A stretch of 64,000 nucleotides of DNA, taken from the NCBI GenBank assembly GCA_026985095.1, contig JALSQW010000029.1, forward strand, positions 62,001-126,000, in the 5' to 3' direction. The number at the start of each line of letters is the position of its first letter. Position 1 is the first letter of the stretch. A program made the translations under genes and the position numbers. Positions 22,872 through 25,745 of the stretch are shown here, one piece after another. Below the pieces are notes generated by a model that was not told the origin of the DNA, did not search any database, and saw only the letters and a list, made by a program, of their open reading frames with translations. The DNA is from Acidimicrobiia bacterium. GTDB lineage: Bacteria; Actinomycetota; Acidimicrobiia; Spongiisociales; UBA5794.

Positions 22872-24437
22872 CTACCTGGGAGCCGCTCGGAGCAATCCGA
22901 GCACGAGGCCGTCGGAGACGGCCTTCCACGAGGCGTCGATGATGTTCTGATGTACCCCGACGGTGCCCCAGGTCTCGTCGACGTTGGAATGGGTGCACAG
23001 GACCCGGACCCTGGCCGCGGTGCCGTCGGTCGAATCGAGGTCGCGGACCCGATAGTCGATGAGCCGGATCTCGCCGATCTGGGGGAACGTCGGCTCCAAC
23101 GCCGCTCGGAGGGCCCGGTCGAGGGCCCCGACCGGGCCGTCGCCTTCGGCGGTCGTGACGACCCGATCGCCGCCCACGTGGACCTTCACCGTCGCCTCGG
23201 CCACGACCTCTCCGGCCCGGTGCTCGACGAACACCCGGTACGACTCCAGCTCGAAGAACGGTTGGGTCCATCCCTTGGCTTCCCGCACGAGCAGTTCGAA
23301 GCTGCCGTCGGCAGCCTCGAAGTGGTAGCCCTCGTGCTCGAGCTCCTTGATGCGGTCGACGACCTGCTGGGCTTCGTCGCCGGTCATGTCCAGCCCGGAG
23401 GCCTGGGCCTTGGCGAGCACGGTGGATCGCCCCGCCAGCTCGGAGACCACCACCCGCGTCGAGTTGCCCACCGCCTCGGGAGCGAGATGCTCGTATGCGT
23501 CGGGCCGTCGCGCCAACGCCGAGGTGTGGAGCCCGGCCTTGTGCGTGAACGCCGACACGCCGACGTAGGGGAGATGCGGATCGAGGGTCAGGTTCACGAT
23601 CTCGGCCAGATGATGCGACACGGTCGTGAGCCGGCTCAGGCGATCGGAGGGGATCGACTCGACCCCCATCTTCAGGGACAGGTTGGGGATGATCGTGCAC
23701 AGGTCGGCGTTGCCGGTGCGTTCACCGTACCCGTTGATGCAGCCCTGGACCTGGGCCACGCCCATGCGGACCGACTGGAGGCTGTTGGCGACCGCCACGC
23801 CGGTGTCGTTGTGGAAGTGGCAGCCGAAGGTGGCCTCGGGGAGGGCATCGGTCACCTCCCCGACGACCCGCTCGACCTCATGGGTGAGGGAACCGCCGTT
23901 GGTGTCGCACAGGACGAGCCGTTCGGCTCCGGCATCGAGGGCCCCACGGAGGACGGCCAGGGCGAAGTCCGGGTCGCTCCGGTAGCCGTCGAAGAAGTGC
24001 TCGGCGTCGAAGAAGACCCGACGGCCCAGCGACCGCAGGTAGGCCACGGAATCGGCGACCATCGCCACCGCTTCGTCGGGTGTCGTCCTGAGCGCATGCT
24101 CGACGTGATAGGACCACGACTTGCCGACCAGGCACACGACGTCGGTGTCTGCCGCCACGAGGGCCGCCAGTTGCTCGTCGTCCTCGGGTCGACGGTTCGC
24201 CCTGCGGGTCGAACCGAACGCCACCAACGTGGCGTCCTTCAAGGTGAGCTCCTCCTTGGCCCTCGCGAAGAACTCGTCGTCCTTGGGGTTCGCGCCCGGC
24301 CATCCCCCCTCGATGTAGGTGACGCCGAGATCGTCCAGGAGCCGAGCGACCGCCAACTTGTCGGTGGCCGTCAACGAGATGCCCTCCTGCTGGGTGCCGT
24401 CGCGGAGGGTGGTGTCGTAGATCTCGACGTTGTGCAT
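22872..24437 (-). CDS. cimA: Citramalate synthase (isoleucine pathway)
   Basis: 521 residues. Condenses pyruvate and acetyl-CoA to citramalate, giving 2-oxobutyrate for isoleucine without threonine. HMGL-like barrel with YDTTLRDGTQQEG (general base and metal Asp), CDTNGGSLTHEV and GCHFHNDTGVAVANSL (metal His pair), and a C-terminal LeuA-like allosteric domain (about 380-521). The start is the ATG at 24437 with GAGGAG upstream. An Ile-rich leader peptide and a terminator stand just upstream, which independently supports an isoleucine role. Confidence 0.92.
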   Translation of the reverse strand: MHNVEIYDTTLRDGTQQEGISLTATDKLAVARLLDDLGVTYIEGGWPGANPKDDEFFARAKEELTLKDATLVAFGSTRRANRRPEDDEQLAALVAADTDVVCLVGKSWSYHVEHALRTTPDEAVAMVADSVAYLRSLGRRVFFDAEHFFDGYRSDPDFALAVLRGALDAGAERLVLCDTNGGSLTHEVERVVGEVTDALPEATFGCHFHNDTGVAVANSLQSVRMGVAQVQGCINGYGERTGNADLCTIIPNLSLKMGVESIPSDRLSRLTTVSHHLAEIVNLTLDPHLPYVGVSAFTHKAGLHTSALARRPDAYEHLAPEAVGNSTRVVVSELAGRSTVLAKAQASGLDMTGDEAQQVVDRIKELEHEGYHFEAADGSFELLVREAKGWTQPFFELESYRVFVEHRAGEVVAEATVKVHVGGDRVVTTAEGDGPVGALDRALRAALEPTFPQIGEIRLIDYRVRDLDSTDGTAARVRVLCTHSNVDETWGTVGVHQNIIDASWKAVSDGLVLGLLRAAPR

Positions 24438-24457
24438 GGTCGACTCCTCAATCGAAA

Positions 24458-24480
24458 GACCCCCCGCTGGGCGGAGGGTC
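24458..24480 (-). terminator. Attenuator terminator in the cimA leader
   Basis: On the minus strand a 10-base stem, GACCCTCCGC paired with GCGGGGGGTC (one U-G pair), loop CCA, followed directly by TTTCGATT. It lies between the Ile leader peptide and cimA, 21 bases before the cimA ATG. Confidence 0.8.
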
Positions 24481-24484
24481 GACT

Positions 24485-24512
24485 GCACACACGCTCTTGG
24501 GGGCGTGTGTGC
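24485..24512 (-). promoter_or_regulatory. Hairpin following the cimA leader peptide
   Basis: Perfect 10-base stem GCACACACGC/GCGTGTGTGC with an 8-base loop, beginning at the base after the leader stop codon and ending four bases before the terminator. A ribosome at the stop codon would cover its 5' arm, so it is a candidate sensing element of the attenuator. I could not find a clean antiterminator pairing. Confidence 0.55.
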
Positions 24513-24542
24513 CTAGGCGATGATGATGATGGATGCGGACAT
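24513..24542 (-). CDS. Ile-rich leader peptide of cimA
   Basis: Nine-residue open frame MSASIIIIA, with four consecutive ATC isoleucine codons ahead of the stop. Such peptides act as sensors: ribosomes stall at the Ile codons when charged tRNA-Ile is scarce. The predicted transcription start is about five bases before the ATG, so there is no room for a ribosome site and the peptide is probably translated from a near-leaderless mRNA. A terminator hairpin and cimA follow. Confidence 0.8.
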   Translation of the reverse strand: MSASIIIIA

Positions 24543-24553
24543 GGTCGACGCCG

Positions 24554-24582
24554 AGTATCCCCCGAGATCGAGGAGACGTCAA
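24554..24582 (-). promoter_or_regulatory. cimA promoter
   Basis: Minus strand -35 TTGACG (24577-24582), exactly 17 bases, -10 GATACT (24554-24559). A housekeeping sigma-type promoter that places the start site near 24547. Confidence 0.75.
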
Positions 24583-24593
24583 GGCGCGACATC

Positions 24594-24623
24594 TTGCTCG
24601 CGGGTCGGGCCCTCGGGTAGCCT
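24594..24623 (+). promoter_or_regulatory. trpS promoter
   Basis: -35 TTGCTC (24594-24599), 18 bases, -10 TAGCCT (24618-24623). The -10 box ends six bases before the leader peptide ATG, so transcription should begin at the ATG. Its -35 box lies 11 bases from the divergent cimA -35 box. Confidence 0.6.
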
Positions 24624-24629
24624 TGGGCG

Positions 24630-24671
24630 ATGCGCACGAACGATCTCGGGTGGTGGCGGCACGATCGATAG
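24630..24671 (+). CDS. Trp leader peptide of trpS
   Basis: Thirteen-residue open frame MRTNDLGWWRHDR with two adjacent TGG codons (24651-24656). It starts six bases after a -10 box and has no ribosome site, so it is probably leaderless. Tandem Trp codons followed by mutually exclusive RNA pairings and a terminator are the signature of ribosome-mediated attenuation. Here it would let tryptophanyl-tRNA synthetase respond to uncharged tRNA-Trp. Confidence 0.85.
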   Translation: MRTNDLGWWRHDR

Positions 24672-24711
24672 GCCGCCGCGCGCGAGGAGTCGAACACGAG
24701 ACGCCGGTGGC
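24655..24711 (+). promoter_or_regulatory. Competing 1:2 and 2:3 pairings of the trpS attenuator
   Basis: Segment 1 GGCGGC (24655-24660) pairs perfectly with segment 2 GCCGCC (24672-24677). Segment 2 GCCGCCG (24672-24678) can instead pair with segment 3 CGGTGGC (24705-24711, one G-U), which is the 5' arm of the terminator. A ribosome stalled on the Trp codons would block segment 1 and favour 2:3, the antiterminator. One at the stop codon (24669-24671) would block segment 2 and allow termination. Confidence 0.75.
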
Positions 24712-24728
24712 TCGGGCCCCGGCGTTTT
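24701..24728 (+). terminator. Attenuator terminator in the trpS leader
   Basis: Stem ACGCCGG plus GGC (a single bulged T between them) paired with GCC plus CCGGCGT, tetraloop TCGG, followed by TTTT. It ends 27 bases before the trpS start, so it can only act on trpS. Confidence 0.85.
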
Positions 24729-24755
24729 CCCATACGCGGAGCGAAGGAGCAGACC

Positions 24756-25745
24756 GTGGAGACGAACAAGAAGGTGTTCTCCGGCGTACAGCCGACCGGC
24801 AACGTGCATCTGGGCAACTACCTGGGGGCGTTCCGGAACTGGGTCGCGCTCCAGGACGACTACGACACGATCTACTGCATCGTCGATCTGCACGGGATGA
24901 CCGTCCCCTACGACCCGGCCGAGTACCGGCGGGCCCGTCTCGAGACCGCGAAGGTGCTGCTGGCCATCGGGGTCGACCCCGACCGGTCGTTGTTCTACAT
25001 GCAGTCCCAGGTGCCGCATCACGCCGAGTTGGCCTGGATCCTCGGCACCATCACCCCGACGGGTGTGCTCAACCGTATGACCCAGTACAAGGACAAGCTC
25101 GCCACCGGTGCGCCGGCCAACCTGGGCCTGTATTCGTATCCGGTGTTGATGGCTGCCGACATCCTGTTGTTCCGCGCCGACCTGGTGCCCGTCGGGGAGG
25201 ACCAGAAGCAGCATCTCGAGATGACCCGGGATCTCGCCGAGCGCTTCAACAACCGGTTCGCGGAGGTCTTCCCGATCCCCGATCCGTTGATCCCCGAGAC
25301 CGCCGCCAGGGTGATGTCGTTGACCGAGCCGACGGCGAAGATGTCGAAGTCCGACCCGGCGGAGCGGTCGCGGATCCTCCTCCTCGACTCGGCGGACGCG
25401 ATCATGAAGAAGGTCAGGTCCGCGGTGACCGATTCGGAACCCACCGTCCGGTACGACGTGGAAGCCAAGCCCGGTATCTCGAACCTGCTCGAGATCATGG
25501 CGGCGTGTACCGGACGTTCCATCGACGATCTCGTCGCCGAGTTCCACGACGCCGGGTACGGACGGTTCAAGGAGGCGGTGGCGGAGGCCATCATCGACGC
25601 GCTGGCACCGATCAGGTCGGCGTACGAACGTCTCGACGACCGTGAGGTCGCTCGGATCCTCCAGAAGGGCGCGCTCGACGCCAGGACCCAGGCCGAGTCC
25701 TACCAGGCGGAGGTCCGCCGCGCCGTCGGCCTCGACCAGATCTAG
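24756..25745 (+). CDS. trpS: Tryptophanyl-tRNA synthetase
   Basis: 329 residues. Class I synthetase charging tRNA-Trp. SGVQPTGNVHLGNYLG contains the HIGH-type motif and TAKMSKSD the KMSKS motif; GEDQKQHLEMTRDLA is also typical. GTG start with AAGGAG six bases upstream. The gene is preceded by a complete Trp attenuator. Confidence 0.96.
   Translation: METNKKVFSGVQPTGNVHLGNYLGAFRNWVALQDDYDTIYCIVDLHGMTVPYDPAEYRRARLETAKVLLAIGVDPDRSLFYMQSQVPHHAELAWILGTITPTGVLNRMTQYKDKLATGAPANLGLYSYPVLMAADILLFRADLVPVGEDQKQHLEMTRDLAERFNNRFAEVFPIPDPLIPETAARVMSLTEPTAKMSKSDPAERSRILLLDSADAIMKKVRSAVTDSEPTVRYDVEAKPGISNLLEIMAACTGRSIDDLVAEFHDAGYGRFKEAVAEAIIDALAPIRSAYERLDDREVARILQKGALDARTQAESYQAEVRRAVGLDQI

Follow-up and report, generated by a model that had tools for sequence, protein, structure and literature searches.

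We find that cimA, the citramalate synthase gene of this Acidimicrobiia bacterium, lies behind a leader element that, judged by comparison of related genomes, is class-wide in Acidimicrobiia and has no Rfam entry; the cimA leader described here is one of its members. The element very probably exerts leader-peptide control that responds to isoleucine or, more generally, to branched-chain amino acids (BCAA). As for how it would act, we propose a translation-sensing transcription attenuator of cimA in which a hairpin abutting the leader stop codon, P1, serves as a folded spacer, or length switch, and no antiterminator takes part, a reading to which we give about an even chance of being right.

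The element lies on the minus strand of the window, that is, the whole stretch of 64,000 nucleotides that was analysed, and comprises the following features, given in window coordinates.

24577..24582, minus strand: -35 hexamer TTGACG of the leader promoter, from a promoter scan; TTGAC recurs in relatives
24554..24559, minus strand: -10 hexamer GATACT, 17 nt from the -35 hexamer and 11 nt 5' of the leader ATG
24513..24542, minus strand: leader ORF encoding MSASIIIIA (ATG TCC GCA TCC ATC ATC ATC ATC GCC TAG), from the sequence and relatives
24519..24530, minus strand: four ATC (Ile) regulatory codons, at positions -5 to -2 before the stop, from codon statistics in relatives
24515-24513, minus strand: leader stop codon TAG
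24485..24512, minus strand: hairpin P1, 10 bp, abutting the stop codon, GCACACACGC-CCCCAAGA-GCGTGTGTGC, from folding and covariation
24458..24480, minus strand: hairpin P2, the terminator stem, 10 bp with a 3-nt loop, GACCCTCCGC-CCA-GCGGGGGGTC, from folding, a terminator scan and covariation
24450..24457, minus strand: U-tract TTTCGATT, from the terminator scan
24444..24449, minus strand: GAGGAG, a Shine-Dalgarno-like sequence of cimA, read from the sequence
22872..24437, minus strand: cimA, citramalate synthase (TIGR00977), from a profile match, with its ATG at 24437

An earlier note on this DNA had described a TTGACG-17-GATACT promoter upstream of the leader, a nine-residue frame with four consecutive ATC codons, a 10-base hairpin after the leader stop, and an intrinsic terminator with a T-tract followed by cimA, and all of these parts are present (the frame at 24542-24513, the hairpin at 24512-24485, the terminator at 24480-24450 and the cimA start at 24437). 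The promoter is the sole promoter-like site within 24420-24760 (0.1 in shuffles), and P2 with TTTCGATT is the sole terminator site in the region, appearing as two overlapping stems (0.0 in shuffles). The 113-nt leader RNA has a folding energy of -49.3 kcal/mol (z -4.95), the pattern ATHATHATHNNNTAG has its single occurrence in the 2.93-Mb genome at the cimA leader, and the CimA protein scores 675 bits against TIGR00977, for which the cut-off is 450. A short ORF with a codon run for the amino acid of the regulated pathway and an intrinsic terminator between that ORF and the gene, by which a leader-peptide attenuator is recognised in the broad sense, are both found at this locus. In relatives, TTGAC and a C/GATACT-like -10 hexamer recur at a spacing of mostly 17 nt, and in the leaders of 60 relatives with a recognisable promoter the -10 hexamer lies at a median of 9 nt from the start codon, a distance so short that the leader mRNA would be nearly leaderless.

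At the majority of loci fetched by a DNA search of 60 relatives, cimA is preceded by these same parts, and a CimA protein scan of named genomes returned 80 loci, nearly all of them from Acidimicrobiia. Carriers range from Ilumatobacteraceae to the AT-rich Candidatus Actinomarina, in which the cimA leader reads MKKIIIII before its stop codon. A covariance model built from 34 cimA leaders (R1) was run against a sample of 395 Acidimicrobiia genomes and has matches in 297 of them, counts that rest on rough E-values and largely on metagenome assemblies. In a sample of the phylum, R1 also matches 27 genomes of other classes, where the matches that were fetched precede ilvB and have a P1 of greater length. 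A second model (R2), which begins at the stop codon and contains no codons, recovers ilvB and leuA leaders by itself.

Except on one unplaced contig, the element is found before every cimA examined whose upstream region is intact and not internal to an operon. In nearly all cimA loci without a leader of their own, cimA is the operon gene that immediately follows ilvE, and we rejected these as counterexamples because most ilvE-cimA operons bear the element before leuB. In leuB-ilvE-cimA operons it usually lies about 2 kb upstream of cimA, before leuB as the first gene, and R2 detects it ahead of leuB at 29 of the 46 loci in which cimA comes after ilvE. Candidates such as a T-box, a riboswitch (ppGpp and others), the ilvB motifs or another Rfam family were likewise rejected, since Rfam 15 covariance models gave no match at the element, either in this leader or at nine other loci.

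Several loci depart from this general picture. In one family of the same order (f8; G043, G050, G056 and others), most genomes are without a match, the exceptions being G158 and G258, and other families of that order do carry the element. One cimA gene (L014, on G002:C158) has no leader and a different upstream region, possibly on a contaminating contig. The ilvB leaders of other classes (L189, L192, L195, L199 and L201-L206) have a longer and irregular P1 together with LVLI codons.

The codons at -5 to -2 track the pathway of the target gene. Four targets were found, namely cimA, leuB(-ilvE-cimA), ilvB and leuA, and the codons are Ile for cimA, Val/Ile for leuB, Leu/Val/Ile for ilvB and Leu for leuA. 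The ATC run, whose conservation in relatives the earlier note had proposed to check, is retained: among 71 distinct cimA leaders, Ile occupies -2, -3 and -4 in 96, 94 and 93%, and -5 in 51%, compared with 3% at -1 and 4% at -6, although these statistics are partly selected, as the first script required at least two Ile codons per leader. At -3 and -2 the wobble bases of the Ile codons vary in cimA leaders, while the first two bases hardly do. The leuB leaders (59) have Ile at -2 in 95% and mixed Val/Ile at -3 to -5 (VIVIP, VVIP), and the ilvB leaders (40) have Leu, Val or Ile at -2 to -5 (LVLIT, VLILM). Similarly, all three leuA leaders (L258, L264 and L209) carry Leu throughout -5 to -2 (..DLLLLM and MTSTLTLLLLS, each up to the stop), with P1 and P2 downstream. 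The regulatory amino acids (Ile, Val or Leu) hardly ever appear at codon -1.

The genome analysed here contains a second copy of the element before ilvB (G000:C56:104034-104105; L142:2035-2106, minus strand), with a leader that ends in SFVLILM. Where one genome has an element before each of the two genes (13 genomes), Ile makes up a fraction of 0.75 of codons -5 to -2 in the cimA leaders and 0.23 in the ilvB leaders, and all 13 genomes show the difference in the same sense. The earlier suggestion that leader peptide and terminator would tie cimA to isoleucine supply thus receives strong support from the comparison of relatives.

Both hairpins are conserved as structures. In P1 and P2 together, 13 of 16 pairs show changes on both sides and 94.8% of cells pair, giving a covariation score of 0.492, compared with 0.225 for shuffles and at most 0.197 for slid controls. 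Of 172 leaders, 153 end with TAG, and pairing in P1 usually begins at the G of the stop codon. Among the 149 non-redundant leaders that were parsed, 97 have the first base of P1 at the third stop-codon base and 134 have it no more than one base away; the gap between P1 and P2 has a median of 2 nt. Counting a folded P1 as zero length and assuming E. coli-like ribosomes and polymerase, we obtain a median distance to P2 of 7 unpaired nt (5-11) for a ribosome with the last regulatory codon (-2) in its A site and P1 folded, and of 28 nt (5-95% range 24-36) for one with the stop codon in its A site and P1 unfolded. After the P2 stem, relatives have about 5 U among 8 nt, and the U-tract of Actinomarina consists of nine consecutive U.

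Folding with a masking ribosome, another check put forward in the earlier note, bore out the response of P1, whose pairing is 0.96-0.98 during Ile waits and 0.17 at the stop, whereas the mean equilibrium probability of P2 exceeds 0.9 in every state. As this equilibrium measure misses classical attenuation in the trpS control, it was dropped in favour of the co-transcriptional gain, which is the pairing energy available to the P2 5' arm before its 3' arm exists.

That an antiterminator is not obvious had been remarked before, and the doubt was justified: none is detectable in the 149 non-redundant leaders. We used a swap test that compares the pairing of a leader's own segments with pairing to segments taken from other species with that target gene. 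Own-segment pairing exceeds the swapped controls in P1 (z -30) and in P2 (z -18), and the alternative pairings give no overall signal in the 149 leaders (2:3, p 0.90; 2:4, p 0.15; 1:3, p 0.54; 1:4, p 0.60) in a test that is blind to complementarity identical in all species. In the ilvB subgroup, 2:4 reaches p 0.003, as one among many tests. At an absolute energy of -4.0 kcal/mol, against -16.8 kcal/mol for P2, the 2:3 pairing is too weak to compete with P2. Pairing with the 5' part of the leader, with the Ile codons or with the 45 nt downstream of P2 (the cimA start region) also gives no signal, and an antiterminator formed from any pair of P1/P2 segments or from these other regions was therefore rejected.

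The co-transcriptional gain leads to the same result, with means of -0.4 kcal/mol for cimA, -0.3 kcal/mol for leuB and -0.4 kcal/mol for ilvB leaders. In seven trpS leaders, used as a positive control, it amounts to -8.2 to -13.5 kcal/mol, and the antiterminator of the Trp leader is thus clear by the same measure that finds none in the BCAA element. An antiterminator that excludes the terminator, as in the trp/his type, is found in the trpS leader and is not found in the cimA element.

The trpS gene is divergent from cimA, and at 24630-24728 (plus strand) of the window it has a Trp leader peptide, MRTNDLGWWRHDR, with an antiterminator and a terminator, an arrangement conserved in relatives, whose Trp leader peptides include MELVGSWWWRQR and MIPTGTRWWRSTV. 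The trpS and cimA leaders would form two amino-acid attenuators back to back.

The palindrome GTCGAC had been pointed out as occurring three times on the RNA, with the suggestion that its copies could pair with each other. The three sites exist, but their mutual pairing was rejected: the hexamer has 114 copies in the window (77 expected), and in the sister genome (L002) only the middle one of the three sites is kept. Being unconserved and common, the GTCGAC sites are not part of the mechanism.

On a translating ribosome, downstream RNA can pair from about position +12, where the P site is +1 to +3. With codon -2 in the A site, position +12 falls on the last base of the stop codon, the usual start of P1, so that P1 would stay intact during waits at -5 to -2 and begin to open at -1, in keeping with the codon window of -5 to -2. 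We envisage that the nearly leaderless mRNA would be translated at once. With sufficient Ile-tRNA, the ribosome would reach the stop codon and open P1; at about 28 nt from P2 it would be too far away to block folding, and P2 would form and terminate transcription in vivo. With scarce Ile-tRNA, the ribosome would wait while one of codons -5 to -2 occupies its A site, and P1 would remain folded at the mRNA entry channel, leaving about 7 unpaired nt to P2. The nearby ribosome would then keep P2 from zipping in the exit channel of RNA polymerase, and cimA would be transcribed. With P1 acting as a folded spacer, the position of the ribosome would give the right output without an antiterminator.

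The steric step, in which a ribosome near P2 would block its folding, draws on E. coli distances and on knowledge of the entry channel, and in our judgement it is evenly poised between right and wrong. In E. coli, a terminator a few base pairs behind a stop codon is almost fully repressed, an effect that is lost once the distance to the ribosome exceeds about 27 nt (PMC4824070), and termination in vitro falls by half in the presence of a trailing ribosome (PMC10135430). Two points count against the folded spacer: P1 may retain a few of its upper pairs while the stop is occupied by the ribosome, and a ribosome waiting at codon -5 is 9 nt farther from P2 than one at the -2 end.

P1 could instead be mainly an RNA polymerase pause hairpin that allows the ribosome to catch up, in which case a stalled ribosome would prevent termination by general coupling, regardless of its distance from P2. 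P1 forms early and is placed like the trp and his pause hairpins, and a coupled ribosome reduces termination (PMC10135430). We nevertheless consider this explanation unlikely, given that pausing alone accounts neither for a P1 start fixed at the stop codon nor for the short gap to P2 and the sharp window from -5 to -2. No more probable is a classical attenuator in which a hidden antiterminator, formed by the P1 3' arm or another segment, captures the P2 5' arm in starvation. Every other part of such an attenuator is present, and the ilvB leaders of C. glutamicum and M. tuberculosis have been explained by antiterminators (PMC11857589; PMC13236596); against it stand the absence of signal for 2:3, 1:3 and 1:4 in 149 leaders, the lack of pairing with the 45 nt downstream, and a co-transcriptional gain close to nothing by a measure that does detect the trpS antiterminator.

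The U-tracts of several GC-rich members are interrupted, TTTCGATT in the present leader being an example, which would suit post-transcriptional control, with leader translation and P1 setting the processing, stability or translation of the cimA mRNA and P2 as a weak or incidental terminator. P2, however, is conserved, covarying and followed by a U-rich stretch that extends to nine U in a row in Actinomarina, and there is no conserved pairing with the cimA start region; we regard this possibility as quite improbable. A constitutive arrangement, in which the Ile run has no regulatory role, is already very unlikely, as codon identity shifts with the target gene while the position is kept and, in cimA leaders, the wobble base of Ile -3 and -2 varies with hardly any change in the first two bases.

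Classical attenuators of the E. coli trp, his and ilv type consist of a leader ORF, a terminator and a mutually exclusive antiterminator. The cimA element shares with them a short ORF with codons for the end product, an intrinsic terminator and a biosynthetic target gene, but it is without a detectable antiterminator and its post-stop hairpin does not overlap the terminator. Because no antiterminator was found, we do not class the element as a classical attenuator, although it would work like one. In the pyrBI operon of E. coli (pyrL), UTP is sensed through polymerase pausing and the leader ORF runs into the terminator. The proposed outcome would be similar, with a nearby ribosome preventing terminator folding without an antiterminator, whereas here the signal would be codon supply, a folded hairpin would set the distance, and the ORF ends 24-36 nt before P2 rather than overlapping the terminator.

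Among actinobacteria, the ilvBNC leader of C. glutamicum (ilvB-II motif) has an antiterminator that shares bases with the terminator (PMC11857589, PMC10272879), and the M. tuberculosis ilvB1 leader, with LVVI codons, has one that excludes the terminator (PMC13236596). Our element resembles both in combining a BCAA leader peptide with a terminator, and differs from them in that no antiterminator was detected here. The leader start without a ribosome binding site is also shared with C. glutamicum IlvL, which is made without one according to the title of a reference quoted in PMC10272879. Seliverstov et al. (2005) reported candidate actinobacterial ilvB leaders, some with attenuator parts missing, in which leader peptides and terminators likewise lie upstream of ilv operons; the codon runs there overlap the terminator, and cimA, leuB-ilvE-cimA and Acidimicrobiia are not covered (PMC1262725). 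In the open-access literature, we found no description of such an element for cimA or for Acidimicrobiia.

Extended to the whole class, our proposal would be a family of attenuators without an antiterminator, in which a stop-clamped hairpin serves as a folded spacer and the sensor codons are freely exchanged between Ile, Val/Ile, Leu/Val/Ile and Leu; we advance this wider reading tentatively, at slightly less than an even chance. If true, a simple amino-acid switch would require any codon run, a hairpin at the stop codon and a terminator, folds that exclude one another would not have to evolve, and the distance between ribosome and terminator needed to stop folding would become a testable quantity. 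Such an element might also account for the elusive antiterminators of some actinobacterial leaders, and it would provide BCAA control for a large and mostly uncultured class that includes the abundant marine Actinomarina.
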